DNA of 64,000 nt from JBDREC01 sp043820105 [NCBI: Pseudomonadota bacterium]. GTDB lineage: Bacteria > Bdellovibrionota_F > JAHFAK01. Each line of letters begins with the position of its first letter. The stretch's first letter is position 1. A program made the position numbers and the translations under genes. The stretch is taken from the NCBI GenBank assembly GCA_043820105.1, contig JBDREC010000076.1:1-64000 (forward strand). The letters run 5' to 3'. A model generated the notes under the pieces. The model was not told the origin of the DNA. It ran no database searches and saw nothing but the letters and a program-made list of their open reading frames with translations. Below, in pieces: positions 12,612-32,208 of this stretch.

Positions 12612-12963
<352 letters not shown>

Positions 12964-13061: not shown

Positions 13062-13085
13062 ATTTTTAGAAATCTTATTTTATAA

Positions 13086-13640
13086 TTAAAACAACTTATC
13101 TAGTTCTTTTTTGCTTAGCTCAAATACTTTTGCTTTTGTACCCTCTTTAATAAATTCATATGAAATTATTTCTTCTCCTATACATCTAATACATAGCTTT
13201 TCTTTCACTCGAATAGCTCCAATATTCTGAATAGGTGTTTTAAAAATAATTTTCTTTAATTTAAATCTGTAAAAAAATATTTTGAATGCGATAGGATATG
13301 TATATGTACAAATTCCCTTTCTACGAAATTCCTTTTTCCAAATGTGGGCATGAAAAATTGCAGAATCATCCTCTTTAGAAATATGAATTAGGTGCACTCC
13401 AATGGGTTTATCCTTGTATTGGATAGTTAAGTAAGTACTTTTGGAATCTGTAGTATTGTCGCCTTTTTCACATATATCTTGAAGCACTTTCTTTGTTTCT
13501 TTTTCTAGGCGCATTTTTGATGAATCTACACCCAAAGATTCAACATATCCAGCTTCTGAGCGATACCAATAATCAAGAACATATTGGACATCTTCTTTAT
13601 TAAAATCCCTAATTTCAATATTTTTGATATTTATTTTCAT
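13086..13640 (-). CDS. GNAT family N-acetyltransferase
   Basis: A 184-residue protein with the GNAT fold pattern: an N-terminal strand-helix, AIFHAHIWKKEFRRKGI as the acetyl-CoA-binding RxxG-type segment (about residues 90-108), and IGAIRVKEKLC corresponding to the late helix in which these enzymes usually have an N-x-x-A/S. The substrate is unknown. The 3' end faces module R1, as do most genes in the array. Confidence 0.8.
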   Translation of the reverse strand: MKINIKNIEIRDFNKEDVQYVLDYWYRSEAGYVESLGVDSSKMRLEKETKKVLQDICEKGDNTTDSKSTYLTIQYKDKPIGVHLIHISKEDDSAIFHAHIWKKEFRRKGICTYTYPIAFKIFFYRFKLKKIIFKTPIQNIGAIRVKEKLCIRCIGEEIISYEFIKEGTKAKVFELSKKELDKLF

Positions 13641-13725
13641 TTTATAATTCTCTTAGATTTTTCCATACAACTATTTAAAATTATGTTTTATTTTTGTGCT
13701 AGAATATTCAAATCAATTATTAAAC

Positions 13726-14574: not shown

Positions 14575-15164
14575 AGATTAGTCTCAATTGATCCAATAAT
14601 TGTTTCCCAATATTTTTTAATAACATTTTCATAACCAAGTGCTTTTGCCATTTTCATGATTTTTGAAAGATTTGTTTTTTTCTCATTTATTGCTTTTAGA
14701 ATCGCTGAAATTGAAGTTCTTATACCTATCTTACTTGAATACCGTAGAGATTCTACAAGTGTTCTTTCAATATTTGTTATTTTGTAATATTTTTTATTTT
14801 CAACGCCTATCATAGATATTTTTTTAGCTCGTATAAGTCTATACTTTGAATCAGTAGTTTTTATATTATGAGGTACAGTTATCCATATCTGCGATGGAAC
14901 TTGTTCGATAAGCCCATGATAGAAAAGAGCTGTAAATCCAGCAATAATAGATTTATTACCAAATTTTTTGTATGAAGTGATAAAATCTCTTTCTTCTATA
15001 GATATATTATTACAACCTGGATGGATATAAAGCCCTCTTGAGAGCTTAATAATTTCCTCTTTTTGGTACATCCTGTAAAGAGTAGACCAAGATATTCCAA
15101 GCTTCTTGGCATCTTCTATACAAAAAACACCCAGATTTTTAAGTTTTTCTTTCTTGTTTTTCAT
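14571..15164 (-). CDS. AbiEi-type antitoxin (winged helix plus C-terminal domain)
   Basis: A 197-residue protein with an N-terminal winged-helix pattern (FCIEDAKKLGISWSTLYRMY, then LSRGLYIHPG) and a C-terminal domain with AFTALFYHGL and ERTLVESLRY, as in AbiEi antitoxin/transcription regulators. It is upstream of and overlaps the AbiEii toxin gene by 4 bases. The family usually represses its own promoter; the likely operator region is 15165-15263, between this gene and a MITE. Confidence 0.87.
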   Translation of the reverse strand: MKNKKEKLKNLGVFCIEDAKKLGISWSTLYRMYQKEEIIKLSRGLYIHPGCNNISIEERDFITSYKKFGNKSIIAGFTALFYHGLIEQVPSQIWITVPHNIKTTDSKYRLIRAKKISMIGVENKKYYKITNIERTLVESLRYSSKIGIRTSISAILKAINEKKTNLSKIMKMAKALGYENVIKKYWETIIGSIETNL

Positions 15165-15263
15165 AATTCCTAATTTTCAATATTATTTTCCGATGAACAT
15201 TTACAGACATTAATATAACAAAATGTCCAATATTGTTCAAGTAATTTTTTGCTTTTTGTAATT

Positions 15264-15435
15264 AAATTGTTCTCCACCCAATTTTACACAAAAAATTGTT
15301 CTCCACTTTAATTCAAGCGAAATTGGTTCTATAAAATTTTCATGATTTCTTTTAATGGATTTTAATGACTTTCTAAGCCGCTAATATTTCAGGGAAATAT
15401 TGGATGACCTCTTTTGAGAATTGGAGAACAATTTT
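15264..15435. mobile_element. MITE copy 1 (172 bp)
   Basis: Terminal inverted repeats: AAATTGTTCTCCA at 15264 and its complement TGGAGAACAATTT ending at 15435. A subterminal second TTGTTCTCCAC lies 28 bases inside the left end. No coding capacity. The left end matches the edge of the IS66 remnant at 22560, so it is probably a nonautonomous derivative. A near-identical copy lies at 16985-17154. Its right end touches the tmRNA-like sequence of module R2. Confidence 0.8.
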
Positions 15436-15436
15436 A

Positions 15437-15557
15437 GGGTTTGTTTCCCTTAGCCTCCATCAGCAAAAGTAATTTTCTTAACAAAAATTACTTACGGGTG
15501 AAGTAAATTCACCCTTTGCTATAAGTCAAGGGGAGCTAGCTCCCCTTAACAATCCCC
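15437..15557. repeat. tmRNA 3'-end remnant plus three-hairpin module, copy 2 (R2)
   Basis: The first 27 bases (15437-15463) match the tmRNA 3' end at 12941-12967 in 22 positions, including GCCTCCATCAG. Hairpin 1 is AAGTAATTTT/AAAATTACTT (15467-15493). Hairpin 2 is GGGTGAA/TTCACCC around GTAAA (15496-15514). Hairpin 3 is AAGGGGAGC/GCTCCCCTT (15528-15547). AACAATCCCC follows. The stem bases differ from R1 but remain paired. Confidence 0.85.
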
Positions 15558-15611
15558 TTTTTATTGTAAGATAAAAATATTCCGTTGTAATTAAATGTTC
15601 TGTCACTTATT

Positions 15612-16808
15612 TCAAATCTGTTTTCTTTTTATCACCATATTTGTCACTACTACTTTGTTTGCAAGCATATCGTTTTCTTCTTCTTGTTTTTTAATATAAT
15701 CTTCAAATAATCTTCGCTTGTCTGGATACTTTTCGATTAATTCGTTACAACGGTTTTTTAAATTTTCAAATATGAAATCATCTTGTTCTATTATATCGTC
15801 ATTTCTAATAATATCATCTTCTATTAATTGCATTTTGGCTAAATTTATCTGTTGAAGAATTTCATGTTGTTTAAACAATAATGGATGTGTGAAATCACTT
15901 TGGTCTTCAATATATGCATCATCTATGATTATAATTCCAGATTTTTTCAGATAATTTGATAATTCTAAGAAATTTTTCAGAAATTTATCCCAGTTTTCCA
16001 TTTTCATAATTATCTGCTTTTCAGCTCTGTTTTCTGCTAAATCAAGATATGCTCCAACAATCCTGTTTAATTCTTTGATATGATTTTCACTTAAATAGTT
16101 TTTGGCAATTGTCACATCGGACTTTAATATCTTTCCATCAGGAGCTTGCTTCCAGTTTGTTAATCCTAAATAAAGTTTATTAGTATCACAAGATTCATAT
16201 ATTATTTCAGCTGCTGTTTTTCCAGTAATTGCCCAGTGCAGTTTGTTTTGAACAGTTGCAAAAAACTCTTTCGTAATCGGTGCATTTTTATCATAATCTG
16301 CTGATAAGGAATAAATATCTGTGATTTTTTGGTAAAACCTTCTCTCACTTGCCCGAATTTCTCTGATTCGTTCAAGTAACTCATCGAAATAATCTTTTCC
16401 AAATAACTGATTGCCTTGCTTTAATCTTTCATCATCAAGAACAAATCCTTTAATTATAAATTCCTTTAAAGTTTTTGTAGCCCAGATTCGAAATTGCGTG
16501 GCTTGATAGGAATTGACTCGATAACCAACAGAGATAATTGCATCAAGATTGTAAAATTTTACAGGTTTGTCTGAATTTGGAATGTGCATTTTTTGCACAT
16601 TGCTTTTTTCTTCTAATTCGTTACTTTCAAATATATTTTTCAAATGTTTTGTAATCACACTTCTATCAACTTGAAAAAGCTCCCCCATCGCTTTTTGTGT
16701 TAACCATAAATTTTCATCTTTTATTAATGTCTCAACATTAATATGTCCCTCAGCTGAAGTATAAAGTAGAAAGTTTGCTTGATTTGGTATAACTTCCTTT
16801 TGTTCCAT
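15612..16808 (-). CDS. RhuM-family (virulence RhuM-like) protein
   Basis: About 398 residues. The N-terminus resembles a phage-antirepressor/helix-turn-helix region (NLWLTQKAMGELFQVDRSVITKHLKNI), followed by the conserved YNLDAIISVGYRVNSYQATQFRIWATKTLKEF. The C-terminal part has a Fic/DOC-like stretch (ITGKTAAEIIY) and a coiled coil. RhuM proteins were first described from a Salmonella pathogenicity island and are common in mobile and defence regions; their activity is not established. I use the ATG at 16808 because the longer frame would start at TTG. Its 3' end faces module R2. Confidence 0.85.
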   Translation of the reverse strand: MEQKEVIPNQANFLLYTSAEGHINVETLIKDENLWLTQKAMGELFQVDRSVITKHLKNIFESNELEEKSNVQKMHIPNSDKPVKFYNLDAIISVGYRVNSYQATQFRIWATKTLKEFIIKGFVLDDERLKQGNQLFGKDYFDELLERIREIRASERRFYQKITDIYSLSADYDKNAPITKEFFATVQNKLHWAITGKTAAEIIYESCDTNKLYLGLTNWKQAPDGKILKSDVTIAKNYLSENHIKELNRIVGAYLDLAENRAEKQIIMKMENWDKFLKNFLELSNYLKKSGIIIIDDAYIEDQSDFTHPLLFKQHEILQQINLAKMQLIEDDIIRNDDIIEQDDFIFENLKNRCNELIEKYPDKRRLFEDYIKKQEEENDMLANKVVVTNMVIKRKQI

Positions 16809-16984
16809 TTTAATAGTTATCTCCAAAGGTATAAATGGTGATTAATTGTTTAGATATTTATTAGATCAATAGGCATAATTTTTCAACAACTTTATTTTAT
16901 ATAACTTACTTTTATTCAATTCTCACATGTTTTAAATTTAATTCCTGAATTCTAGAATTTAAATAATATCCATCCTTAATTATT

Positions 16985-17154
16985 AATTGTTCTCCACCCA
17001 ATTTAACACTAAAAATTGTTCTCCACTATAAATCTATCTAATTTGGTTCTATTAATTTTCGGTATTTCTTTTTATGGGATTTTCATGGCTTTCTAAGCTG
17101 CTAATATTTCGGGAAAATATCGGATGACTTCTTTTGAGAATTGGAGAACAATTT
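16985..17154. mobile_element. MITE copy 2 (170 bp)
   Basis: Same ends as copy 1 (AATTGTTCTCCACCCA at 16985; GGAGAACAATTT ending at 17154) and near-identical interior, including CTAATATTTC and GGATGACTTCTTTTGAG. It again abuts a tmRNA-like sequence and a hairpin module, so MITE and module may have duplicated together. Confidence 0.8.
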
Positions 17155-17156
17155 TT

Positions 17157-17277
17157 GGAGCTGTTTCCCTTAGCCTCCATCCGCAAAAGTAATTTTCTTA
17201 ACAAAAATTACTTACGGGCGAAATAAATTCGCCCTTTGCTATAGGTCAAGGGGAGCCAGCTCCCCTTAACAATCCCC
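17157..17277. repeat. tmRNA 3'-end remnant plus three-hairpin module, copy 3 (R3)
   Basis: Contains GTTTCCCTTAGCCTCCATC as in R2. Hairpin 1 is identical to R2 (17187-17213). Hairpin 2 is GGGCGAA/TTCGCCC around ATAAA (17216-17234), a compensated change from R2. Hairpin 3 is AAGGGGAGC/GCTCCCCTT with loop CA (17248-17267). Confidence 0.85.
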
Positions 17278-17378
17278 ATTACAATAAGCTAAAAGTACTT
17301 TTAATTTTTCAAATGACAAATCAAAATATATGAATTAATTTAAATAAAAGATGACTCATCAATCTAAATGGAGATAAA

Positions 17379-18224
17379 ATGCAAATTACAGTACTAACAG
17401 ATAATAATGTGTTAAACAATAAGCCATGTTTTGGAGAAGCGGGATTATCTTTTTTTATTGAATTAGATGATAAAAAGCTTCTATTTGATTTTGCTTATTC
17501 AGATATTTTTCTTAAAAATGCAATTACATTAGGTATTGACCTGAAACAACTTGATTACGCAGTTGTTTCGCACGGTCACCTAGACCATATGTGGGGTATT
17601 GGGCATTATTTGCAATATTTAACTAACAAAAAATTACTTGGAGATAAAATTAACAACCCTATATTTATAGCCCATCCTGATGTTTTTATCTCAAAGAAAT
17701 TTGACAAGATAAATTTAAATGAAATTGGCTCTTTAATATCAAAGGAAAAACTGAATCTACATTTTGAATATAATCTAACAAAAGAACCTTTTTGGATTAC
17801 AGATAAGCTTGTTTTTTTAGGAGAAATAGAAAAAAAATATTCATTTGAAGGTAAAATTCCAATTGGAAAGAAATTCATTGATGGTCAGATGGTTGATGAT
17901 TATATGCCTGATGATTCCGCCTTGGCCTATAAATCATCAAATGGTGTTATTGTAATTACTGGATGTTCCCATTCTGGAATATGCAATATTATTGATTATG
18001 CAAAAAAAGTCTGCAATGACAATAGAGTCAATGACGTTATCGGGGGATTCCATTTACAAAATCCTAAGGATGAACTCTTGGAAGGTACTTTAGAATATTT
18101 TAAAAATTCAAATATCCCGGTAATACACCCATGCCACTGCACAGATTTAAAATCGAAAATAAAATTATCTGAAATTATAAATGTAGAAGAAGTTGGTAGT
18201 GGTTTCAAAATGATTGTCGAGTAG
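17379..18224 (+). CDS. MBL-fold metallo-hydrolase
   Basis: A 281-residue metallo-beta-lactamase-fold protein. The metal motif SHGHLDHMWG lies near residue 63-72, with further metal ligands in GCSHSGI, GGFHL and HPCHCTD. It resembles the archaeal/bacterial family annotated by similarity to dihydropterin phosphate synthase or general MBL hydrolases; the substrate is not predictable. Start ATG at 17379 with a weak GGAGA upstream. It is the only plus-strand gene in the array. Confidence 0.85.
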   Translation: MQITVLTDNNVLNNKPCFGEAGLSFFIELDDKKLLFDFAYSDIFLKNAITLGIDLKQLDYAVVSHGHLDHMWGIGHYLQYLTNKKLLGDKINNPIFIAHPDVFISKKFDKINLNEIGSLISKEKLNLHFEYNLTKEPFWITDKLVFLGEIEKKYSFEGKIPIGKKFIDGQMVDDYMPDDSALAYKSSNGVIVITGCSHSGICNIIDYAKKVCNDNRVNDVIGGFHLQNPKDELLEGTLEYFKNSNIPVIHPCHCTDLKSKIKLSEIINVEEVGSGFKMIVE

Positions 18225-18283
18225 AAATATAATTAAATCTAATAGAGATAATCTAAGATACTAGCCCATAATTCAAACCACCA

Positions 18284-18331
18284 AGCTCAACTCCATCTCC
18301 ACGGGTTCTACAATTGAAACTGCGCCTCCAT
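18284..18331. repeat. att-like repeat A resembling the tmRNA 3' end
   Basis: GGGTTCTACAATT followed by CTGCGCCTCCAT (18303-18331), inside a longer stretch shared with repeat B at 20896-20945 (23 of 29 bases across the core). The ending GCGCCTCCAT equals the last bases of tmRNA. It separates the MBL gene from the AlbA_2 pseudogene. No three-hairpin module follows it. Confidence 0.5.
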
Positions 18332-18447
18332 AAAATTAATTTCACTAAGTTGTATCGAACTAATATAGTTTGTAATATTAAGCGGTTATCTGTTGGCATA
18401 AAAAGTTCGATGATGAATTTTTAAAAAATTTTTCTGTATTACAAATT

Positions 18448-19786
18448 CTATTTCCTTATTTTCCAATGACCTGTTTTCTTACTACCAATAAATTCAATTT
18501 TATTTTCATTCTTTAATTGAGTAATAGCTCGTTCTATGGTTTTTTCATTAACTTTCAACTCTTTTGCTAATGATTTATTTGTGAAGGATTCTTTATTTTT
18601 TATTTTTTTATATATTATTTCCAATCTTTCTTTTTTACCGACATTTTTACCGACATTTTTACCGACATTTTCATCTATTATACTTCTTTTAAAAACAACT
18701 AAAAACCCTGTTTTTATTTCTTTGAAATCAACCTTAACATTCTGTTTTTTGCATTCTTCATATATTCTCTTTAATCCAGAACCCCATTTTTCTATTTCTC
18801 CTGATTTATAAAGAACTTCAGCTATTAAAGGATTTCTTAAAACAGAACGTTCATTGCCTTTGATAAAATCCTTGGGGCTTAATCCTTCAGGAAATTCACC
18901 AGGATTATAGATCTCTAACCTATCTTTAAATATTGCAATTTCATTTCCTTTGGGATTATTATAATCTCTATGACATAAAGAATTAACAAGTGCTTCTCTA
19001 ATTGCTCTTATTGGAAATTTCTGGAATCTCTTCTCGATTCAGTTTTCCAAACTGAACATTCCAATTTATGTGTTCTTTGATATAAGATTCAGATTGCTCA
19101 AGCAAATTAAAAAGATTACCTTTAAGTTGTTTAATATCAATAAATGTAAGTTTATCAGCACCCGCAAATACAGCTGCTTGAACATCCAAGAAATTGTCTT
19201 TTATAAATAATATTTCAGCAGCTTTTAAAATCTTCTTACCTTTTAAAAGATCTAATTTATTTAATGTGATATTTATATTTGTAAATTTAAAACTAATTCT
19301 TCCAGCATTATTAGCTTTTTCAATATAATTCTTAAGATCCTCTTTATTTATACTTTGAATACTTTTCTCAGATATTTTCCTATCCCAACTCAGCTCTTTT
19401 TGATTTTTCTTTAAAATAAGTTTTTCTAATTCTCTGGCACTTAATTGTCTATCCTCATCAGATACTCTCATATAAGCTCTACCATAAGCGAGATAGGGTA
19501 TTTCATTTCCAGAAAACTCAATCCTTATACAGTTTTTGCCTTCAATCACTTCTTTTCTAATTTCAGGATAAATCTTTGGTTCAATATGATCCGATATGGA
19601 CTTAGATATGTCTCTTAATGTTTTATCTGTTATTTCTTGACCTACAACAGTTCCATCATTTTTTATACCAAAATACAGTTCTCCCTTATTATGCTTATTC
19701 AATATTGAAACAATTGATATTATTCCTTCCTTTAATTCAGATGATGATTTTTTAAGCTCCAATTTTTCTGCTTCTTTTAATTTCAT
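18448..19786 (-). pseudogene. AlbA_2/Schlafen-type ATP-binding HTH protein, frameshifted
   Basis: The N-terminal half (from ATG 19786, preceded by AAAGG) has the AlbA_2 pattern: ELKKSSSELKEGIISIVSIL, GELYFGIKNDGTVVGQE, then YLAYGRAYMRVSDEDRQLS. It stops at 18998. The frame shifted by one base continues RFQKFPIRAIREALVNSL then CHRDY, and the ATPase and wHTH part ends at 18448. The C-terminal half contains an imperfect NVGK repeat. The junction is near 19015-19040. Either a decayed gene, a sequencing error or recoding. Family members occur in defence and regulatory loci. Confidence 0.8.
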
Positions 19787-19902
19787 ATTAACCTTTATCA
19801 ATCATTAAATTATTAAATAAAAGTATAACATAACAATTATTTTATCAATCTTTTCTGACGAATTAGATAATTGTAAAAAAACAAATATGTTAAAATAATA
19901 TT

Positions 19903-20022
19903 AGGGAGGAAAAATCTTTCCTCCCTGTTCCTCCCCTTTGAAAATCAAGCAGCAATCAACCTCTTAATATCATTGAACTCTACAAACTCATTTTGAAGGA
20001 GGAAAGTTCGATATGCGTGTAC
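19903..20022 (-). pseudogene. gene remnant with its terminator, cut at the module R4 boundary
   Basis: A minus-strand frame of about 23 codons ends in DIKRLIAA and a TGA near 19948. It has no start and runs back only to the GCCTCCATCAG core of module R4. Beyond the stop, AGGGAGGAAA pairs with TTTCCTCCCT (19903-19926), a strong 10-bp hairpin suited to a terminator. I read it as the end of a gene truncated by integration. The family is unknown. Confidence 0.4.
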
Positions 20023-20029
20023 TTGCCTC

Positions 20030-20130
20030 CATCAGTTTGGATAATTTTCTGAACGAAAATCATCTACGGCAGAAGTAAATTCTGCCTAAACTATCAGTCA
20101 AGGGGAGAGCTTCTCCCCTTAACAATCCCC
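20030..20130. repeat. three-hairpin module, copy 4 (R4)
   Basis: Starts with CCTCCATCAG. Hairpin 1 is GATAATTTTC/GAAAATCATC with one mismatch (20040-20064). Hairpin 2 is GGCAGAA/TTCTGCC around GTAAA (20068-20086). Hairpin 3 is AAGGGGAGA/TCTCCCCTT (20100-20120). AACAATCCCC follows. Unlike R2, the sequence left of the core is not tmRNA-like but a truncated reading frame. Confidence 0.85.
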
Positions 20131-20193
20131 ATTAAAGATATCGAGTACTGTTCTGTAGGATTTGGTCCAATTGAAGCGGCTTTTCCTCTGCAC

Positions 20194-20763
20194 TTATAGC
20201 TTAATTTCCAATTGATACAATCTAGCTGAGCAAATGCATGGCTGTTTTTTACACCCTGGACATTCAAAAGGATGTTCTTCTGTATCCTTCTTATAGAATC
20301 CAACAACTTCTTTGATTTCCTTAAAACCGAGTTTTCGAAAAACTCTATCGGATGTGTGTTGTAAATTGCTTAGCCAAGCAACACCTAAAATAATATTGCA
20401 TTTTTCAGTTTCTAGCCACTTTATCCGTTTTTTTGATAACATTTGCCCAATTCCCTTGCTCTGTAAATTCTCTCGAACACACAGAGAACATAAAGAACCG
20501 ACTTTCTTTTTATTTAATCGAGATTCAATATTTTTATCAAAGGGTAAGTAGTAGGAAAAATTATTTATTATTTCTGCACAGCCAATTCCTACAAGTTCTT
20601 TGCCTAAGAAAGCACCTAAAACAAGAGCAGACTTGCTCTTAATCATGCTTTTAAGGTAATTTATATTAAATAAGCCTATGCCTTGGGTCCTATTCATTAA
20701 CTCAATCGCTTGTTTTAACAACTGAGATTCGTTTGAGGTTAGTTCTCGTATCTCTACGTTCAT
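20194..20763 (-). CDS. GNAT family N-acetyltransferase with C-terminal cysteine cluster
   Basis: About 189 residues. GNAT motif A is visible as GSLCSLCVRENLQSKGIGQML (Q/R-x-x-G-x-G/A), and the late motif as SDRVFRKLGFKE. The C-terminus has FECPGCKKQPCICS, four cysteines that could bind zinc, as in some ArgA-like acetyltransferases. I start at the second of two in-frame ATGs (20763) because GGGGG lies too close to the first. The 3' end faces module R4. Confidence 0.82.
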   Translation of the reverse strand: MNVEIRELTSNESQLLKQAIELMNRTQGIGLFNINYLKSMIKSKSALVLGAFLGKELVGIGCAEIINNFSYYLPFDKNIESRLNKKKVGSLCSLCVRENLQSKGIGQMLSKKRIKWLETEKCNIILGVAWLSNLQHTSDRVFRKLGFKEIKEVVGFYKKDTEEHPFECPGCKKQPCICSARLYQLEIKL

Positions 20764-20895
20764 TTTCATCCCCCATTACTATGTAAAATTTCTATAAAAA
20801 TAATCATTGAGAAACTATAATGTTTACCTAATGTGAAATCAAGTTGAACTATTTTATCAATAACAATGAACCAAAAACATAAAATATTAAACCAC

Positions 20896-20945
20896 CATCT
20901 TCAATTTCAATCCCACGGGTTCTACAATTCGTCCTGCATCTCCAT
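20896..20945. repeat. att-like repeat B
   Basis: GGGTTCTACAATT then CTGCATCTCCAT (20917-20945), the second copy of repeat A with the same flanking AAACCACC start. It lies just downstream of the second AbiEii gene. Confidence 0.5.
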
Positions 20946-20958
20946 AATAATTTGATTT

Positions 20959-21870
20959 TTATATCCAATCTTGATTCTTAACTTCCCATGTTTTATTAAA
21001 TAATGATTTTATAATTAACGATTCTACAATTGGCAGAAGAAATTGTTTTATTTTTTTCATAACATTTAAAAATGAATCATCAGATTCCAGTTTTGATTTT
21101 CTTAAAAATGCTTTCCATTGGATTTGTTTATTTCCATCAGATGTAAAAACATCTTCAAACAACGACATTGCATCTTCGATATTAAGTTTTCTTTTCTTAA
21201 AAGTAGCACTCATTGCTTCTTTTAATTTAATACTATTAAAAGATACATTTTGAGAAAGATATAAAATATCATAAAAATCTTTAAGGCGACTATTAAACAA
21301 ATATAGTTTCACCATAGCTTCAAATTTCTCAGCTACAACAGTTTCCCAGCTATAAGCTACAATTTTAGGAGCTTTTAAATCAAGAATCGTTGGATAGTTA
21401 AATACTATTGGCTTTGGTTTAACTGAATCTTTAAATCCAATATCAATTTGCATTTTTGATCTCGCTGAACCAAGGCTTGCATTAAATTTAACTCTAAGCG
21501 AATTAATTAAATTATCTTCTCTAATATTCATAGAACTTATAGTTTCAGAAAGAAAAATCACACCATCTTCTACTGGAATTTCACAAATTGCTTTGATCAT
21601 TCTTTTTGCTGTCTCATGGTCAAGATTTTCCCGCTTTAATAAAAAATCAATGTCTTGTGTTGGTCTTGATTTTGCGATATTTAAACTAAGAAGTAATGCT
21701 CCGCCTTTTAAAATTAGATCGTTTTTATATTTAGAAATAGAAACTCGATATAAAAATCTTTCTTGAAAATAATATATTAATATCCGATTAAAAATGATTC
21801 CATGTTGTTTTGAATAATTTAAAAGTTTAGCTCTGACAGAAGCAGCATGGTCTTTTATTTCTTTTTTCAT
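20959..21870 (-). CDS. AbiEii-type nucleotidyltransferase toxin, second pair
   Basis: A 303-residue AbiEii-family protein: LILKGGALLLSLNIAKSRPTQDIDFLL carries the KGG and R-x-T-x-DID motif, and SRLKDFYDILYLS is the second conserved block. It is only distantly like the protein at 13726-14574, so the two pairs are independent acquisitions rather than a recent duplication. The ATG shares one base with the stop of the antitoxin gene (TAATG), indicating coupling. Confidence 0.88.
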   Translation of the reverse strand: MKKEIKDHAASVRAKLLNYSKQHGIIFNRILIYYFQERFLYRVSISKYKNDLILKGGALLLSLNIAKSRPTQDIDFLLKRENLDHETAKRMIKAICEIPVEDGVIFLSETISSMNIREDNLINSLRVKFNASLGSARSKMQIDIGFKDSVKPKPIVFNYPTILDLKAPKIVAYSWETVVAEKFEAMVKLYLFNSRLKDFYDILYLSQNVSFNSIKLKEAMSATFKKRKLNIEDAMSLFEDVFTSDGNKQIQWKAFLRKSKLESDDSFLNVMKKIKQFLLPIVESLIIKSLFNKTWEVKNQDWI

Positions 21871-22466
21871 TAAAGATTTGCCTCAATATATGGTTTCATA
21901 ATATTAGCCATTTTACATATCCTGGCTTGATCCATGAGTTTTTTTAGGTTCATTTTTTCTGTCTTAAGATAATTATATAGAACTTCCTTTGCAGTATCAT
22001 CGCCTAGTTTTCTCCTAAATCTAAAAGCGTCACATATAGATTTTTCAGGAGAATAAATTCTAAAACTGTTATTTTTTATTGAAACTTTTTCTATGCCCGC
22101 CTCATATTGTTTTTTGGAAAAATGAAAAACCTGAACAGGAGGAAAATTTAGTTGCGGAGTATGATAACCCTGAGGAATTGCGATCATAACATCTATTGGA
22201 ACAAATGTTGTTAGCTCATAATAATGAAGAGCTGAATATAGACAAATAACTGATTTTGGTATTGCTTTACACACATCCATAAAATCTTGATCATTAGAAT
22301 ATATATCATTCTTTATTCTATAAAGACCTCTTTTAATTTGCTCAATCTGTCCTGTCTTAATGTGAAATTTAATCTGGCTATAGGAAATACCATTTCTCAG
22401 AATTTCAGTTGTGGTAGCATAACCATTATTTAGTTTCATGAATTTTATTAGAATTGATTCTTTCAT
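21870..22466 (-). CDS. AbiEi-type antitoxin, second pair
   Basis: A 198-residue protein with an N-terminal winged helix (YATTTEILRNGISYSQIKFHI, then IKRGLYRIKND) and the C-terminal AbiEi domain (ICLYSALHYYELT, PEKSICDAFRFRRKLG). It precedes the AbiEii toxin gene with a one-base overlap. It is probably an autorepressor, as is usual in the family. Confidence 0.86.
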   Translation of the reverse strand: MKESILIKFMKLNNGYATTTEILRNGISYSQIKFHIKTGQIEQIKRGLYRIKNDIYSNDQDFMDVCKAIPKSVICLYSALHYYELTTFVPIDVMIAIPQGYHTPQLNFPPVQVFHFSKKQYEAGIEKVSIKNNSFRIYSPEKSICDAFRFRRKLGDDTAKEVLYNYLKTEKMNLKKLMDQARICKMANIMKPYIEANL

Positions 22467-22559
22467 ATCACAATTTCCAGCTATATTTATTAATAAGTAT
22501 AGCCTGTTTATGACTATATGTAAAGTATAAAATACTAAATTTTAGCAATATCCAATTAC

Positions 22560-22932
22560 AAATTGTTCTCCACCCAATTTTGTACAAAAAAATGTTCTCC
22601 ACTTATAATTCACTCAAGTTGACATTTAAGCTTTTATGGGTAATAGAATTTGGACCTCCGTACAGAGTTATCATCACGTCGTTTGTAAGCTTTTTGGGCC
22701 ACTTAAACTTATCTTCTTCCAGGCGCTTGTACCAAAGTGCAAACCCCGTTTGATCCCAATAAAGCACCTTTAATCTTGAACGATTCTTGTTGCAAAATAT
22801 AAACAAGTACGCTGCAAAGATATCCAGCTTCATCTCTTCTGCAACTATACATGAAAGTCCATTTATCGACTTCCGAAAATCAACATAATGTTTGTATAAA
22901 TAAATTTTCCTGAACTTCCCTAGGTGTAACAT
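22560..22932 (-). mobile_element. tnpB: IS66-family remnant with truncated tnpB (Orf2)
   Basis: The frame at 22603-22932 (109 codons) matches IS66 Orf2/TnpB: YKHYVDFRKSINGL at the start, AAYLFIFCNKNRSRLKVLYWDQTGFALWYKRLE, then KFKWPKK. The C-terminus diverges after that. TnpA and TnpC are absent. The left edge (22560) carries AAATTGTTCTCCACCCA plus a second TGTTCTCCAC, the same end as the two MITEs. It is therefore a deletion derivative and the likely parent type of the MITEs. Confidence 0.8.
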
Positions 22933-24975: not shown

Positions 24976-26644
24976 AATCTGGATCAATTTTCCTTATCTC
25001 CTTTAAAACATAACGACGATTATCTTTAAGTTTATCAATAATAGGAGAATATGTATATTTAGCAATAGCCTCATTTATTAAATAATAAATTTCAATAAGC
25101 TCTTTGAGCTTCTTTTTTGCATCAGTAATTCTTTCACTTGCTAAAAATCTTTTGGCAGCGCTTGTTCTAATATCTTTAGTAATCTTATCATCTAGCTTAA
25201 ACATTATATTTTTTGCGTCACTTTCAAAATCTGTACCAATTAGTAATTCCACTCTATTCCTAACATTAATAAGTTCATCCATATTTTTAAAATTATCAAT
25301 TTTCATGGAAGCTTCTTCAATAAGCTCATAAGCCTCATCACTTGACACTTGCACATCTTTAACGCTTTTTCCCTTTTCTATAATTGATTGCACTTGATTT
25401 TCAAGGGCTTTTGATGGCCAAATATATGCATATTTATCTGCAAGATCTTTAGCTTTGCTAATTCTATGTTTTATATCCTTAATCGAATTAAGTTCTTTTA
25501 TTTCATTATTAATTTCATTTGTTAATAATGGATTAATCTTTTCTAATATGCTTTTTGCTTTTTGTGAATAAGCACTACTTGGATAGTCGTCAATAATTTC
25601 ATAACAAGCAAGTGCTGAAGACAACAAATCCTTTCCTGAAATAGCTGCAATTTCAGCCTCAGACAGCTTCATAGCAGCCTTATAATCGCTGATATCACTT
25701 TCACTGATTTGGGTGTTTTTATGAAGCTTGTCAATTATATCATTTGTAATTTTTATATTATAATTCTGCAGCTTCATCATATCTTTGAAGTTTGTATTGA
25801 TCTTTCTTCTATCGTCGCTTTCTAAAGAAAGGTAAACAAGGTAATAATAAATTAGTACAGAGTTCAAATTATAGTTGGTAGAATACGTTGAATTTTTTAA
25901 CCACTTATATGCTTCTTCAGAACTTCCATTTTTAGAAAGTGAAATCCCGTACATAATAATAATATCAGAAGGTAAAATTGGTAAAAGTTCATTTATTTTT
26001 TTGTCATTAAAATATCTTATAAATTCTTGATAATTATTAGTACCATATATTGATCTTAGCTTAAATAAATCAGCTTGCATTTTCTCAGAAAAGGCAAAAT
26101 AGTCATCTTCAACAATCATCTTCCTAGATACAGTCGCGCTATCTTTGTTTTCAATATTTAATCTAAATTTTTTGGCTAGTTCTACAAAAGAATCGTCATA
26201 AATTACTTTTGAAGATTGAGTCAGTAGAGATAATAAAGTTCGAGGTTCTAAGTAATTTTTTCGAAGACTGCCTTCAAGCAATTCACTGATCTTAGTTAAA
26301 TGATCTATCCGATTTTGCAAATCTTTTACAAGCAAACCAATCTCTTGAAAATCAGAGCGTGAATAAGCAACATCACTAACTAGCATTTCTTCTAAAACTA
26401 AATATTCTTTTTTTAATTTGCCAATTTGTTCCTCAAGCATGGCTTTATTAATTAAAAACTCTTTTGTATATCCTAAAGAAAAAGCCTCTTTTTGTTTAGA
26501 TTTTTTTTCTTCGCGAACCTCTGGCTTTGTAACCACTGGAGGCTTATAAAAGCACGAAGTAAAAAATAGTATAAAAATAAGATTAATAGGTAGAAATAAA
26601 TTCTTTATAAATCGGCGTAAATAGCCTTTTAGGTTTTTTTTCAT
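24968..26644 (-). CDS. predicted lipoprotein, helical/coiled coil, unknown function
   Basis: About 558 residues from the second of two adjacent ATGs at 26644-26647. A type II signal peptide ends in the lipobox FTSC. The mature protein is rich in Lys, Glu and Leu with long helical stretches and SEEAYKWL / SALACYEIIDDYPSS segments that resemble TPR-type repeats. Its start overlaps the end of the PBP1A gene by about 60 bases, so the two are probably co-translated, suggesting a cell-wall role. The stop overlaps the convergent SLBB gene by 8 bases. No specific family is recognised. Confidence 0.65.
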   Translation of the reverse strand: MKKNLKGYLRRFIKNLFLPINLIFILFFTSCFYKPPVVTKPEVREEKKSKQKEAFSLGYTKEFLINKAMLEEQIGKLKKEYLVLEEMLVSDVAYSRSDFQEIGLLVKDLQNRIDHLTKISELLEGSLRKNYLEPRTLLSLLTQSSKVIYDDSFVELAKKFRLNIENKDSATVSRKMIVEDDYFAFSEKMQADLFKLRSIYGTNNYQEFIRYFNDKKINELLPILPSDIIIMYGISLSKNGSSEEAYKWLKNSTYSTNYNLNSVLIYYYLVYLSLESDDRRKINTNFKDMMKLQNYNIKITNDIIDKLHKNTQISESDISDYKAAMKLSEAEIAAISGKDLLSSALACYEIIDDYPSSAYSQKAKSILEKINPLLTNEINNEIKELNSIKDIKHRISKAKDLADKYAYIWPSKALENQVQSIIEKGKSVKDVQVSSDEAYELIEEASMKIDNFKNMDELINVRNRVELLIGTDFESDAKNIMFKLDDKITKDIRTSAAKRFLASERITDAKKKLKELIEIYYLINEAIAKYTYSPIIDKLKDNRRYVLKEIRKIDPDFN

Positions 26645-29600
26645 CATTATCACAATCGCCATAATATTCCTCATATACATTAGCCTCAGTTTTTGGGTCC
26701 ATAAATTGACCATTAATAATATTGACAGGCAACTTACAACGATCAGAAGACAATGGCAAGAATTCAATTTCTCGTGCCCCCTCAAAAGCATAATCATAAG
26801 GATTAATATTTTTTGAATAATTATCTGATGAAACTACATAATTTGCAAAATTTCCCCATATAGGCATTGCTCCTGTGGCGCCACTTATTTTAAGTTTTTT
26901 ATTTGCCATTCTTTTATTGTTATCATAACCCATATAAGAAGCAACAACCAGGGTTTCATTGGCATTTAAACTGTTTTTTGATTTTAAATAGGGGATAAAC
27001 CCTGCAAAGGTAGAATTAATATAATTATTAGTTGTTCCTGTTTTTCCAAAAAATGGAACACTTATAAATAGGCTGCTATCTGCATCATCCAGGGAAAGTT
27101 TAATTTTATTTTGCCTATCAAGCCTTATTCCTGTGCCATATTTAACAACATTTCCAAGGATTTGGTTTATTAGGTCCACCAAACGATAATCAACAACATT
27201 TACTGATCTTTCTTGATTTCTATATATTACATTACCATTCCTATCTTCAATTTTACTAATTAAAGTTAATGACCAATCAATATCATCAGCAGTAAAATAA
27301 CGAACCCCTCTTGTCATCGTTTGATATGCTAAAGCAATTTCATCTAAACTAACTGAGTTAGAACCAAGCGGAAAAGATAAAACTTCATCAAGCCTTGTTT
27401 TAATACCAAGTCTATAAGCAAGATTTACCACATACTTAAGAGCAAGATAAGTTCTAAAATCTTGATGATAATAAAGAGCTTTAAGAGAATAATAATCATC
27501 ATTTATTAAGTCCGCGAAGAGGGTTTTTAAATTTTCGTCTATTGTAAAAATGCTTGAAAGTTTTACTCTGCCATCAATATAGATATCCTCAACATTATAT
27601 TCGTCTAAAACCTGCTGTATGGAAATTGGATAGGAAGTCACAATATTTAAAACCTTAGTTTCTTTGCGAAGTTTATCATAAAAATCTGTTTTAAATATAA
27701 TGTTTCTTTGCAAGTCATCATCAACAGCAATCTCAAGCTTTAATTGCTTATTATTTGATTTTTCAGATTTATAATCTTGAATTGCCTTTACAATTTCATT
27801 TGCAGCGTTTTTATATCTTATATAATTATCTAAAAGGAAGGGTATTTTTTCACTAGATTTATTATATTTTTCTTCATATTTTTTTTGCTTTAACTTTCCT
27901 CTAACAGATAATTTTTTTAAAGCATCTAGTTCTGCTAAAATATTTTCAATTTCTTCATTAAAACCTGTGCCATAAGCTAAAGACTTTATATATCTAGCCT
28001 CTTTTTCCCTGCCATCAAACACATATTCAGGATATAATTCTCTAATGGCTATATTAAATAGCTTTGGAGTGAATTTTTCTTTAGAAATTAAAATTCCATG
28101 TTTATCTCTTAGTCTATTAAAATATTCTCGATCAGATTCGGTATTATTTTTTGCCAGATCTAAAAGTCCACAAAGCTTGATAAATTCGTCAAAGTTTAAG
28201 TAATCTAATAAATTATACAAAAGGTAAACTGTTGCCAAATTTTCAGATTTAACACCAGCCCATGAAATTGAAACCTCATCAGTTTGTGGAGCGTGATCTG
28301 GCTTGGGAATGTAAAATTGATTTTGAAATGGAAAAACCGTGCGAATATTTGGAATCATATCTATATTTGACCACCCAAGTTGAAAGGCAGCTAAGTAAAC
28401 TAAAAGTTTAAAAACAGATCCTGGCTGGCGTTTAGCCATTATAGCGCGGTTGAAATCCTTATTATCGTAGCCTCCAGCTATAGAAACTATTTTATTTCCA
28501 TCTATAGCTATCAATCCACCATCAAGTTTTGTATCCATCCTTAAATTATAAAAAGGAAGTTCGCCCTCAGTGTTATGCCTTGCAAGCGATACAAGTATAT
28601 TGTCACCCTTTTTAAATTTCTTTAGAAAACTTTTGAAATTATGTTCATTAGCACTAACCCAAATGCCATTCTTATTCTCCAAATCACTTTGGGTGAATTC
28701 TAGTAAAGATTCTGGATCAATTAATCCCTGCTCATCATCTAAGTTAAATAGTATAGTCTTTTTATCTTCTTTTTGATCTAGCACATAGTTATTATTTAAA
28801 ACAGTTGCGATTTTTATTTCTGCAAGCCTGGGCTTATAATCTTTTATTGGTTTTTCATAAGAGTTTAGTTTTACTTCAGCCAATTCTAAACCCTTTCTCA
28901 AACTTTCAACAGCAGCTTGTTGTAAATTATAATCAATTGTGGTGAATATTTTTATTCCAGAAGTTGAGATATTTTCAATGCCTGCTTCATTCAAGAAATC
29001 TTTGATTTTATCAGATTCTAATTCCTTAGAAACCATATCAATTAAAATATTGTTTTCATAAGAAAATCTACCAAAATTAAAATCAATCTCTGCCTTTAAA
29101 GCCTCTTCCATTTCTGCTTTTGAAATAGCATTTACTTTATACATATTTCGAATTACATAATTTTTTCTTTCAACGGCTCTAACATAAGCTTTTTTTTTAT
29201 TTTCTTCAGTGGAATAAAAATCAGGATTATATCTATTCGGACCCTTAAAGGCTCCGGCAATAAAGGCTGCTTCAACTAAGGTAAGATCTTTTGCTTCCTT
29301 GGAGAAAAAATATTTAGATGCAATATGCAAACCGCGACCATTACTATTTACAAAGAACTGATTAATAATGAATTCCAGGATTTCATCTTTTGAATAAATA
29401 TGCTCCATCCTTATGGCGTTGATCATCTCCATAATTTTTGGCGTAAAATCTCTTTTACTTCTAAAAGTAATATTCCTTATTGCAAGCTGTGTTAGTGTAC
29501 TTGCACCCTGTACGACTTTTCTTGCTTTAAAATTAACCACAGCAGCTCTAACCATGCCTTTAAAATCAAGGCCAAAATGAGAATAGAAATTTTTATCTTC

Positions 29601-29897
29601 AGATGCAATTAAAGCTTTTTTAAAAACATCCGGTATTTCATCAAATGATAAATACTTTCTGTGGCTTTTACTAAAATATACTCCCATCAAATTATGACCA
29701 TCATTAAAATAAATTGGGCTTTCACTTGAAATTGTGGACATAATATAGCTTCTTTCCAAAACTTCAGGCTTTGCCTTTATTATGAAGATATAATAAGATA
29801 AAATAGATGCTAAAATTAATAAAAACAGAAATATGGAGCCTAAAAGTGATAATCTAATAATCCATTTTTTAAATTTCTTTTTTGTTTGTATTTTCAT
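26583..29897 (-). CDS. class A penicillin-binding protein (PBP1A-like)
   Basis: Polymerises and cross-links peptidoglycan at the inner membrane. One N-terminal membrane segment (LSLLGSIFLFLLILASILSYYIF) precedes the GT51 glycosyltransferase domain (ASEDKNFYSHFGLD, QGASTLTQLAIRN). The transpeptidase has the active serine in RQPGSVFK and the KTGTT box. At 1104 residues it is longer than the usual ~800-850. The excess is mainly charged, lysine-rich sequence between the SxxK region and the KTGTT box (roughly residues 600-800). It sits between a lipoprotein gene and the giant RNA gene. Confidence 0.93.
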   Translation of the reverse strand: MKIQTKKKFKKWIIRLSLLGSIFLFLLILASILSYYIFIIKAKPEVLERSYIMSTISSESPIYFNDGHNLMGVYFSKSHRKYLSFDEIPDVFKKALIASEDKNFYSHFGLDFKGMVRAAVVNFKARKVVQGASTLTQLAIRNITFRSKRDFTPKIMEMINAIRMEHIYSKDEILEFIINQFFVNSNGRGLHIASKYFFSKEAKDLTLVEAAFIAGAFKGPNRYNPDFYSTEENKKKAYVRAVERKNYVIRNMYKVNAISKAEMEEALKAEIDFNFGRFSYENNILIDMVSKELESDKIKDFLNEAGIENISTSGIKIFTTIDYNLQQAAVESLRKGLELAEVKLNSYEKPIKDYKPRLAEIKIATVLNNNYVLDQKEDKKTILFNLDDEQGLIDPESLLEFTQSDLENKNGIWVSANEHNFKSFLKKFKKGDNILVSLARHNTEGELPFYNLRMDTKLDGGLIAIDGNKIVSIAGGYDNKDFNRAIMAKRQPGSVFKLLVYLAAFQLGWSNIDMIPNIRTVFPFQNQFYIPKPDHAPQTDEVSISWAGVKSENLATVYLLYNLLDYLNFDEFIKLCGLLDLAKNNTESDREYFNRLRDKHGILISKEKFTPKLFNIAIRELYPEYVFDGREKEARYIKSLAYGTGFNEEIENILAELDALKKLSVRGKLKQKKYEEKYNKSSEKIPFLLDNYIRYKNAANEIVKAIQDYKSEKSNNKQLKLEIAVDDDLQRNIIFKTDFYDKLRKETKVLNIVTSYPISIQQVLDEYNVEDIYIDGRVKLSSIFTIDENLKTLFADLINDDYYSLKALYYHQDFRTYLALKYVVNLAYRLGIKTRLDEVLSFPLGSNSVSLDEIALAYQTMTRGVRYFTADDIDWSLTLISKIEDRNGNVIYRNQERSVNVVDYRLVDLINQILGNVVKYGTGIRLDRQNKIKLSLDDADSSLFISVPFFGKTGTTNNYINSTFAGFIPYLKSKNSLNANETLVVASYMGYDNNKRMANKKLKISGATGAMPIWGNFANYVVSSDNYSKNINPYDYAFEGAREIEFLPLSSDRCKLPVNIINGQFMDPKTEANVYEEYYGDCDNDEKKPKRLFTPIYKEFISTY

Positions 29898-29989
29898 TTT
29901 GGAGATTTTTCAATTTTTTTAATGTGGGTATTAATATTAAGGTATGATTAAAATGTAAAGAAATAAGAGAGTAAGGGAACAAGGGAACA

Positions 29990-30025
29990 AAAAAAGCTGA
30001 CTGGCGAATTTGCCAATCAGCTTTT
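29990..30025 (-). terminator. rho-independent terminator of the giant RNA
   Basis: On the minus strand AGCTGATTGGC pairs fully with GCCAGTCAGCT (one G-U), followed by seven Ts. On the plus strand the same position is a C-A mismatch, so the hairpin is better formed as minus-strand RNA, though it may also act for PBP1A's far side. Confidence 0.88.
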
Positions 30026-31167
30026 TATTCTTTACAAATTATAAAGGCAGGAAAAAATAACTTAAGTAGCATTTCCTCTTCAAAGATCATCCTTTATTAA
30101 GCTATTTAATTTTTTCCTTTGTAGTTTGACCCACTAAGGTAATTTTAAATCCTCTCACAGAGTTATAAGGCTCTTTAGAGTTTTATATGTAAACAAAGTA
30201 TATAATTTTCTGGTTAATTATCACCCTATTTGGTGTTTTAACACCTGTTAGGGTTTCCCTTGTTTACCGTCTGCTAGATGTTTAACCACCTAACTATCCT
30301 CTTATGAGCTTTTACTCTCTCTCAGAGTGTTTGCCTAACAAAGTCTCAAAGCCTCGCAGCTTCTTTGACCTTTCATCGAGGTTTGCGGCCTTATAACGTT
30401 TTCAGTATTTTAAGGACTAACTTACAAGCAAGTTTACCTGGCTTACTTTTTGTAGCTTCCATAGGTTTTGACTAACCTTTCGAAGTTTAATCTTTCCTTA
30501 AAAGACCGCTTAGTGTTATCGCAACTAAGCTACGCTTATAGGCTTTACCTTTCAAAGCTTTGCCAATTAATAAGTCAAGTTAGTTCATCACTAACTTATG
30601 CCCTTACGCTGTTATTCTCAATATTTGCAAAAAACTAGTTGCCCGGTTTTTTGAATATCAATGCATCAACCATAAGGCTTTAAACCGATTAACAAGCTTC
30701 ATACCTCAATTAGCTTCTGGCTAATTAAAACATGATTGCTTTCTTAGGCTTTTCCTCTTTAAGGTTTTCGAAATAAGTCCTTATAGATTAGCCTGTTAAG
30801 CTTATCCTCCTCTTGTGGTCTTTTCAACAAGCTATATCGCTATAACTTCCTAACATGTAACCTTTAGAGTTTTACATAACTCATTTCTAGTTAGCTTATT
30901 TTGTATTTCTACAAAATAAAACTAACACCCTTTTTGAGGTTTTTGGCCTCCTAAAACCTAACATGCTCAAATATGCTAAAGTCCAAAGATCATTTTTTCT
31001 CCAGGTCGTATTAATAAGTATTGCTACTTACCATTGACTGCCTTTAAGGACTTTACTTAGCAGCTTTCTGACACATTTTATTTTGATAGTCCTAAAAGAA
31101 CAATCAAAACCAGTCAGGCTGTTTAGGGTTGGCTCACTCTACCATTGGCTATTTTTCCCTGCCTTGT
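29990..31167 (-). ncRNA. giant structured non-coding RNA candidate (about 1.18 kb)
   Basis: No coding frame of useful length exists here. A consensus promoter fires just before 31167 and a strong terminator ends at about 29990. The first bases of the RNA (31165-31150) pair with 30059-30044 in a continuous 16-bp helix (AAGGCAGGGAAAAATA with TATTTTTTCCTGCCTT, one G-U), closing a 1.1-kb core. Internal hairpins include a multi-segment arm at 31061-31121, a 10-bp stem with GAAA loop at 30896-30919, and stems at 30708-30726, 30577-30597, 30508-30530 and 30223-30254. Size and style recall GOLLD, ROOL and OLE RNAs, but I see no decisive match to any of them. Function unknown. Confidence 0.85.
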
Positions 31168-31174
31168 AAGAAAG

Positions 31175-31203
31175 CTTATAAAGAAGCAAAACTCTTTTGT
31201 CAA
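31175..31203 (-). promoter_or_regulatory. consensus sigma-70 promoter of the giant RNA
   Basis: TTGACA (31203-31198), 17-base spacer, TATAAG (31180-31175). The predicted start is the A at 31167, two bases before the closing helix. It is one of the two strongest promoter matches seen in the window. Confidence 0.85.
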
Positions 31204-31554
31204 TAATTATTTCAAAATAATTTCACATTTTTGTCACATCTTAATAATTCCAAGAACTTATCATATAATATTTTTTTAACAAATTCGTGACTTTAAAATC
31301 ATATTGCAAATTCATAATCTCAATTCCTCCACACACATCGCAGCAAACGACAGTATGTCAAGCAACATCACACACAACACAGGCCTACAACACCAGAAAC
31401 ACGGACAACCAGATCAATCATTACCTGATTCTCTGCATCTACAACATATTACAAAAAAACACAAAACCATATATGTTTTAATTTTTTTTTCAGATAAGCA
31501 ATACTAAAAAAACAGGCCGTGCCCTGTACCCTGTACGCTGTACGCTGTACGCAA
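31204..31554. other. intergenic region with a C/A-skewed stretch and a heptamer repeat
   Basis: Between about 31320 and 31470 the plus strand is rich in A and C and poor in G, unlike its surroundings. Overlapping plus-strand frames here lack ribosome binding sites. On the minus strand, GGAGG about ten bases before an ATG near 31318 could start a 24-codon peptide, but this is weak. A CCCTGTA/CGCTGTA heptamer repeat lies at 31522-31551. Confidence 0.4.
31522..31551. repeat. heptamer repeat (CCCTGTA/CGCTGTA)
   Basis: Four units CCCTGTA, CCCTGTA, CGCTGTA, CGCTGTA followed by CGC. Same family as the hemE, hemC and gdhA-upstream copies, 25 kb away. Confidence 0.8.
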
Positions 31555-32208
31555 CTAAGATCTAACTAACTTTTTATAAGAAAACCACCAATCATAGCTA
31601 TTAGCCCCAAGGATTGTACCCTTAACAGAATCTTCATCAGATGGTGGATGGAGCAAAACGCCCTCTCCAACCAATTCATTAATCGGCCAATTAGCAGGCA
31701 TATCAACCTTATTAGCATCTACCACTGTCAGAGCCTTAACAGCTCTATAGATTTCTTCAACATTTCTGCCTAATTCTTTAGGATAATGAAAGATAGCCCT
31801 AACCTTTGCTATTGGGTCAATAATAATTACTGATCTTGTTGCTATTTTATTATCTGCTTCTGTTATAAAACCCAAATCCCTGGACACATCAGCAAAGGGA
31901 TCAGAAAGAATTGGAATTGTGATATCTGTTTTTAATTTATCCCTCATCCACCCTGTCCATTTAAGGATTGATGTCATCTTGCTACTACAAACACCTAGCA
32001 AAGAACATCGAATAGCATTAAATTCTGGCAGTCTCTTTTGAAAAGAATAAAGTTCCGTAGTGCAAACAGGATCAAATTCAGAAATAAAGTTTACGACAAC
32101 TCCCCACTTAGCATGGAATACATTAGGAAGTTGAACCATGCCAGTTGTAGTTTCAGACCTTATGCCTGGAAATCTTGATCCAATTTTTACAATCGTTTTT
32201 TCGTCCAT
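31555..32208 (-). CDS. 1-Cys peroxiredoxin (Prx6-like)
   Basis: A 217-residue thiol peroxidase reducing peroxides in the cytoplasm. The peroxidatic cysteine is in SEFDPVCTTEL, with the family's P-x-x-x-T/S-x-x-C spacing adjusted to the Prx6 form. The C-terminal extension (LLHPPSDEDSVKG) is typical of Prx6-type proteins. The conserved helix-1 arginine partner appears further on in ATRSVIIIDP. It lies 15 bases after a sensor-like gene on the same strand, probably one transcript. A short heptamer repeat abuts its 3' end. Confidence 0.9.
   Translation of the reverse strand: MDEKTIVKIGSRFPGIRSETTTGMVQLPNVFHAKWGVVVNFISEFDPVCTTELYSFQKRLPEFNAIRCSLLGVCSSKMTSILKWTGWMRDKLKTDITIPILSDPFADVSRDLGFITEADNKIATRSVIIIDPIAKVRAIFHYPKELGRNVEEIYRAVKALTVVDANKVDMPANWPINELVGEGVLLHPPSDEDSVKGTILGANSYDWWFSYKKLVRS

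Follow-up and report, generated by a model that had tools for sequence, protein, structure and literature searches.

A giant RNA gene on the minus strand

The DNA analysed here, called the window throughout, is a stretch of 64,000 nucleotides (nt) from a bacterial genome (contig JBDREC010000076.1, positions 1 to 64,000), and it carries a giant, structured, non-coding RNA gene between a gene of penicillin-binding protein 1A (PBP1A) type and a 1-Cys peroxiredoxin gene. The gene runs on the minus strand from 31167 to 29986 and is apparently intact, without decay; its transcript would be about 1,180 nt long. An earlier inspection of the letters alone, hereafter the sequence-only reading, had placed here a gene for a giant non-coding RNA with a high degree of structure, and had set its limits correctly to within a few bases. 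Our analysis confirms that observation through a fold far stronger than that of shuffled sequences, covariation in relatives from other genomes and open reading frames of at most 24 amino acids on the RNA strand (56 on the opposite strand). The title of that reading named the RNA gene and left out the minus strand, the five repeated modules, and the family with its spread. That the gene encodes a giant RNA of an undescribed family is nearly certain, and we infer that this RNA is transcribed, stable and functional.

Signals at both ends agree with the earlier description. A minus-strand promoter-like sequence, TTGACA-17-TATAAG, is present and would direct transcription, and a terminator-like hairpin with a 15-bp stem is followed by a T-run on the same strand. 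An automatic promoter scan skipped the TTGACA-17-TATAAG pair because it requires a T as the sixth base of the second box; it reported 4 promoter-like sites here against 5.4 in shuffles, which is no excess, and our promoter call therefore rests on the quality and placement of the boxes. The terminator hairpin is likewise unlisted by the automatic scan. Terminator-like hairpins also follow the conserved core of the RNA in 25 of the 47 relative loci counted (of 49), and on the opposite strand in none of the 47.

When the minus strand from 30043 to 31170 is folded, it reaches −335.6 kcal/mol, compared with −250.9 ± 8.7 kcal/mol for 50 dinucleotide shuffles, a z score of −9.7; the plus strand of the same stretch gives −4.8 (50 shuffles). 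We also scanned both strands of the whole window in 640 stretches of 200 nt, with 12 shuffles each. The strongest local z score (−6.3) falls at 30201 on the minus strand, inside the RNA, and the second overlaps the transfer-messenger RNA (tmRNA) gene. The remaining five minus-strand stretches inside the RNA score only −1.2 to −3.3, so that the signal belongs to the whole fold. That fold contains 13 multiloops, compared with 8.4 ± 1.5 in 60 shuffles.

A ring of five modules

In the minimum-energy fold, an 18-bp helix that we call P1 and a short inner helix close a five-branch junction, from which five modules, A to E, radiate (Table 1). P1 of the window scores 39, versus maxima of 30 and 26 in sets of 10 and 20 shuffles. 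Each module is predicted to take one shape, written [[][[][]]]: an outer stem leads to a three-way junction that bears a 5′ hairpin, beyond which a second three-way junction carries two hairpins. The outer stem carries an internal loop, mostly with three bases on either side (3x3), and the 5′ arm of the second junction bears another such loop. In module E the unit is set within an extra stem; its inner part is called the E core. Folded singly, modules A to D and the E core all return this shape, as do 5, 2, 2, 1 and 4, respectively, of 200 shuffles, frequencies that serve as a guide rather than a pre-fixed test, the module borders having come from the fold. Domain sizes from A to E are 193/186/203/156/307. 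The RNA, as its fold shows it, would thus be a P1-closed ring of five modules that share a double three-way-junction shape.

Table 1. Features of the RNA gene and the genes on either side (window coordinates)
Feature	Position	Strand	Evidence or remark
Giant structured RNA gene	29986..31167	−	Fold z score, covarying relatives, limit on open reading frames
−35 box TTGACA	31198..31203	−	Sequence; 17-nt spacer to −10 box
−10 box TATAAG	31175..31180	−	Sequence; spacing would place the start at ~31167
P1 closing helix, 5′ strand	31148..31165	−	18 bp with 30044–30061; fold and helix test
P1 closing helix, 3′ strand	30044..30061	−	Fold and helix test
Module A, [[][[][]]]	30944..31136	−	Fold; 43-nt hairpin at its place in the five clearest relatives
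Module B, [[][[][]]]	30754..30939	−	Fold; R2 match 30739–30956, 13.4 bits, E 0.017
Module C, [[][[][]]]	30547..30749	−	Fold; no model match of its own
Module D, [[][[][]]]	30388..30543	−	Fold; R1 match 30370–30557, 33.4 bits; R2 match, 20 bits
Module E with extra outer stem and hairpins, [[][[[][[][]]][]]]	30075..30381	−	Fold
E core	30152..30327	−	Covariance models; basis of R1–R3
Terminator-like hairpin, 15 bp	29991..30026	−	T-run follows to ~29986
PBP1A-type gene (Transgly, Transpeptidase)	26583..29897	−	Domain scan
1-Cys peroxiredoxin gene	31555..32208	−	Domain scan

A family in two phyla

Three covariance models were built from the E core, using the window alone (R1), two sequences (R2) and ten sequences (R3). 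Two phyla were entered through sequences annotated as Deltaproteobacteria (locus L034, genome G013) and Myxococcales (locus L032, genome G012); we take the phylum of G012 as a second phylum, distinct from that of G013. In 377 genomes of the G013 phylum, R1 gave a single match (54.4 bits), at locus L087 of genome G141, which is intergenic, has a terminator-like end and folds by itself into the E topology of the window. R2 matched 6 of the 71 genomes in the class of G141 and G160 at an expectation value (E) of at most 1. With R3, matches rose to 34 of the 377 genomes at E ≤ 0.1 and 30 at E ≤ 1e-6, six of the matched genomes having supplied sequences to the model, and 9 of 195 genomes in the G012 phylum were matched as well, so that 39 genomes in total (30/377 and 9/195) reach E ≤ 1e-6. 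Some carry several copies: G027 has six R3 matches and G160 has three, one being an inner repeat. R3, to which the window contributed a sequence, gives the window 133.8 bits.

Beyond these phyla, R3 found nothing above chance. A third phylum (218 genomes) and a further one (199 genomes) each gave one match, at E 0.0066 and 0.0072, respectively, which is the level expected by chance in so many genomes; we dismissed both as members. The 40 genomes in the phylum of G003 gave none. Within the family, a tree of 49 E cores (187 columns) places the window with L130 (support 0.24) in a 13-member clade (0.67), a weak placement. Five loci from five genomes (L121, L123, L124, L126 and L129) have near-alike E cores in one tight clade, possibly reflecting close species or transfer.

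Covariation and a shared plan in relatives

Membership of the window in this family is supported by E-core matches combined with covariation, and the covariation check proposed with the sequence-only reading came out in favour of the RNA. In a structure-fitted pair of E cores, both bases differ in 26 of 56 base pairs, and 97.3% of cells are paired. With 10 E cores, 46 of 56 pairs are doubly changed, and with 37 cores 51 of 55; none of 500 shuffles was as high on any measure in either set, and only 34–43% of cells paired when partners were slid, although both alignments include the window's own sequence and were fitted to the structure. (Alignment A5 holds 10 of 11 sources, L105 falling below the cut-off; A7 holds 37 of 47 and A9 49 of 51.) A whole-RNA comparison used a plain MAFFT alignment of eight RNAs of the window's architectural group, excluding the window and imposing the fold of L151 alone. 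Here, 144 of 330 pairs are doubly changed and 81.1% of cells pair, compared with 38.9–44.8% when slid. Because the covariation comes from relatives in other genomes, we read the structure as that of a functional RNA and not as a chance fold.

The relatives also share the overall plan. Folds of L150, L151 and L152 each begin with a 43-nt hairpin, followed by three [[][[][]]] modules and then E; their domain sizes agree within six bases (43/157/191/153/336, 43/156/191/150/330 and 43/155/193/153/330). L112 (43/165/209/150/307) and L128 (43/160/200/156/305) follow with one deviating module each. Thus, P1 with repeated modules and E is found exactly in the window, L150, L151 and L152, and with one deviation in the other two, and the window has a complete module A where these five relatives carry the 43-nt hairpin. 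Length between the P1 ends is 839–1,122 nt in ten RNAs. G+C content over this span is 35% in the window and 53–67% in the nine relatives, a gap that excludes shared base composition as the cause.

Repetition of the unit can be followed within the relatives. In 41 source sequences (401,297 bases), R3 gave 41 main matches and 33 extra ones at E ≤ 0.5, and 32 of the 33 lie upstream of the E core on the same strand. A nearly full-length extra match stands 43–104 nt upstream in 17 of the 41 sources; the other 16 extra matches are pieces of 28–122 nt, one of them downstream. From these upstream repeats, together with the R1 and R2 matches to module D in the window, we take D, in many members, as a relative in tandem with the E core; B and C share the plan.

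A homopurine rule in the internal loops

The loops of the E core follow a rule of their own. Of 49 E cores, 45 have a 3x3 outer loop and 47 a 3x3 inner loop, and the counts that follow omit rows where loop size differs (four outer, two inner and two at one of the 1x1 mismatches). Facing bases are homopurine pairs, A.A or G.G, at the first (43/45) and third (44/45) positions of the outer loop, the first (41/47) and third (41/47) positions of the inner loop, and two 1x1 mismatches (44/49 and 44/47). Mixed A.G occurs 0, 0, 1, 1, 0 and 1 times at these six positions, which therefore covary as A.A↔G.G; at the first position of the inner loop, A.A appears in 20 cores and G.G in 21. The middle loop positions obey no homopurine rule. 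None of 2,000 shuffles reached the homopurine counts at the six positions, although these shuffles ignore kinship. In the window, inspection by eye finds all eight loops of modules B to E in agreement with the rule, provided that B's outer loop, which is 4x3, and D's inner loop, where the fold forms a pair in the middle, are included. We know of no RNA family with such a signature, no search having been made for one. The covariation of homopurine loops provides a testable structural rule that could aid RNA structure prediction.

Comparison with known giant RNAs

At gathering scores, a search of the whole window against Rfam returned only tmRNA and transfer RNA (tRNA). The RNA itself (E ≤ 5), positions 8500–12000 of L087 (E ≤ 1) and 17 relative loci (gathering scores) gave no match to GOLLD, ROOL or OLE, models of which presumably belong to the library searched; the sequence-only reading had been unable to match the RNA to these families, and Rfam bears it out. 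Weak matches (L20 leader, SpF36 and nine others) all lie below gathering score, several of them on the terminator hairpin, and were taken as chance. We found no account of this RNA in the open-licence PubMed Central (PMC) literature, which does not in itself show absence from print. In these searches the family falls in no Rfam family; it is apparently undescribed and new, and kin in kind to GOLLD, ROOL and OLE.

All three share with the window RNA a large and ornate structure. OLE is about 600 nt long, shorter than the RNAs described here, and genes for OLE-associated proteins did not appear among the neighbours scanned with Pfam, where they were not sought by name. ROOL, like the window RNA, lacks a known protein partner; the window family differs from it in having internal module repeats and in showing no phage or tRNA-island setting. 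GOLLD is similarly giant, non-coding and of unknown function, but is carried by phages and prophages, frequently close to tRNA islands, whereas the window family, with its repeated modules, lies among ordinary genes. PMC12286853 describes GOLLD as conserved in its 3′ region and less so in its 5′ region, and the models of the window family likewise rest on the 3′ E domain. The same paper counts few giant structured bacterial RNAs, calls the functions of GOLLD, ROOL and OLE poorly understood, and reports all three as RNA-only assemblies by cryo-electron microscopy. The smtA motif ('Soda Lake RNA') is another large structured RNA of unknown function from comparative genomics but, according to PMC11109978, is smaller, at more than 350 nt, and confined to Thioalkalivibrio; the main text of that paper contains neither 'myxococc-' nor 'deltaproteobacteria'.

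Genomic setting

Genes beside the RNA differ from locus to locus, which fits a trans-acting gene. For example, aminopeptidase P is convergent with the RNA at L087, L097 and L099 (genomes G141, G160 and G027), a MopE-repeat protein lies on the other side at L087 and L097, a cation-chloride cotransporter adjoins L101, and HD-domain proteins lie upstream of the RNA in L112 and L130. No constant tie to one downstream gene, as for a cis-regulatory leader or riboswitch, was found among these differing neighbours. The window's proteins gave only two matches in 45 relative loci, neither being to a gene that adjoins the RNA in the window.

The sequence-only reading had judged the setting not to be that of a phage, and this holds as far as the searches went. 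A tRNA is present in 2 of 40 relative loci, and tRNA-Phe of the window is ~7 kb from the RNA. Matches by blastn cover at most 4% of the RNA in phages and 3% in plasmids, and viral contigs gave no match to two exact stretches and one degenerate pattern of the RNA. Phage or prophage carriage and a tRNA-island setting were not seen, prophage genes around the relatives not having been searched for systematically. The gene looks chromosomal and free-standing, and no mobile-element setting appears among the proteins scanned.

Possible functions

The best explanation, and a reasonably probable one, is in our view a free-standing, modular RNA that works in trans and serves as a multivalent scaffold, either for a partner present in many copies or for its own molecules. 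The free-standing gene would yield an RNA of ~1,180 nt in which the long P1 closes a central junction, the modules radiate from it, and one plan is repeated, as comparison with E shows for D and the common fold shows for A to E of the window. The recurrent A.A or G.G loops could then be equivalent docking surfaces, and it is these that would make the RNA a multivalent scaffold, bringing together multiple copies of a single partner, for which an RNA-binding protein or additional molecules of this RNA are the likeliest candidates. We hold the chances of this scaffold mechanism to be evenly balanced. The five-module RNA of the window looks like an enlarged version of the four-module plan of its relatives. 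A more tentative proposal is that the RNA grew by tandem duplication of one double three-way-junction module into a closed, pseudo-symmetric five-module ring, which assembles a multi-copy partner or its own copies and is carried on chromosomes in at least two phyla; A.A↔G.G covariation in the 3x3 and 1x1 loops would be a signature of a new kind that keeps the modules in shape. If so, it would be an RNA counterpart of repeat proteins and a further class of giant RNA. In any case, its repeated modules offer a route to studying the evolution of large RNAs by duplication, as well as contacts of modules and loops.

Several observations weigh against the modular scaffold. First, at E ≤ 0.5, R3 matches the E core of the window only, leaving D and B unmatched; module C has no model match of its own, and that of B is weak. 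Kinship of A, B and C to E would therefore rest on shared shape and loops. Second, structure alone scores generously with R1, which awards 46 bits to its own source sequence in reverse complement, and the shuffles used for covariation in the E core, loops and whole RNA ignore kinship. Third, the six 3x3 loops of the window fold (shuffle mean 1.3 ± 1.2) are equalled by at least one of the 60 shuffles. Fourth, the helix joining the transcript ends, which the sequence-only reading had described, is found in the window as P1, but only 16 of 47 relative loci support it, with about two expected by chance, so that P1 is not shown for most members. A pass required beating all 20 shuffles, which 17 loci did, including L133, removed as a 30-nt artefact; 2 of 49 loci were too short. 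Most other members, L130, L118 and L131 among them, also fail to show the plan in single folds. Finally, the neighbours scanned yielded neither a partner protein nor a generally conserved gene, and for this reason we infer the docking role from the fold.

Assembly from RNA alone, in which several copies form a ring or cage with the modules as contact surfaces, as for GOLLD, ROOL and OLE, is the strongest alternative, albeit an unlikely one. Recurrent loop surfaces would suit it, and the window RNA resembles those portrayed in PMC12286853 in being large, ornately folded and without a known partner; the absence of an Rfam match, of phage copies in the searches made and, unlike GOLLD and ROOL, of tRNA from most loci argues the other way.

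It is less likely again that the RNA is a protein sponge, whose many equal sites would titrate a regulator as CsrB and CsrC titrate CsrA. The 3x3 loops of the window fold, and the eight like loops seen by eye in B to E, could provide such sites, and A.A↔G.G exchange may keep the shape of a surface, with a precedent for homopurine pair exchange in protein binding in the Rev response element of human immunodeficiency virus. By contrast, the familiar sponges are simple hairpin arrays rather than closed junctions with conserved domain sizes, and the scanned neighbours share no common regulator gene.

A catalytic RNA or intron derivative, such as a group II-like one, would account for the size and multi-domain fold but is very improbable: we found no intron or ribozyme family at E ≤ 5 and no reverse transcriptase or other intron-encoded protein among scanned neighbours, and the RNA is intergenic with its own terminator-like hairpin. 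Still less probable is a cis-acting leader of the PBP1A gene, which lies downstream on the same strand with ~95 bases from terminator end to gene start; the terminator-like hairpin intervenes, and relatives adjoin other genes. A chance fold of intergenic DNA, which the modest z scores of most single 200-nt stretches might have suggested, is refuted by covariation in relatives and by the strength of the whole fold.

Other features of the window

The PBP1A protein of the window had no match in genome contigs and its peroxiredoxin none in viral contigs. A PBP1A match occurs in 20 of 21 mixed genomes, the best per genome at 28–34% identity, and the best overall is 37% over 10–670 (in 140 genomes of the G013 phylum and 71 of the G160 class). 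Among ten RNA-carrying genomes, only G141 has a long PBP1A match at E ≤ 1e-60. The best-matching long PBP1A type is found in 23 of 71 genomes of the G160 class at E ≤ 1e-100. Low-complexity repeats flank the RNA gene at 31515–31555 and 29960–29990 (CTGTACG units; GGGAACAA units).

Elsewhere in the window, a 60-amino-acid piece of a kinase recurs in at least 80 loci from many phyla, the best among the matches listed being ~51–56% identical, with none close over the whole protein. An open reading frame at 4427–5443, which we take to be hydroxymethylbilane synthase-like, appears to contain a repeat-like insertion that keeps the frame, CHPELDSGSTKNGS. At the tmRNA gene (12612–12966), a 126-nt direct repeat starts in the 3′ end, with copies at 15437, 17157 and 20009 (65–76% identity), and a 296-nt repeat lies behind the gene at 15265 and 16985 (88%). 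Cargo behind the tmRNA includes two AbiEi/AbiEii pairs, a RhuM protein and a Schlafen AlbA_2 protein, and the region 12612–22603 resembles a cassette array, or a series of tandem integrations, at the end of the tmRNA gene.
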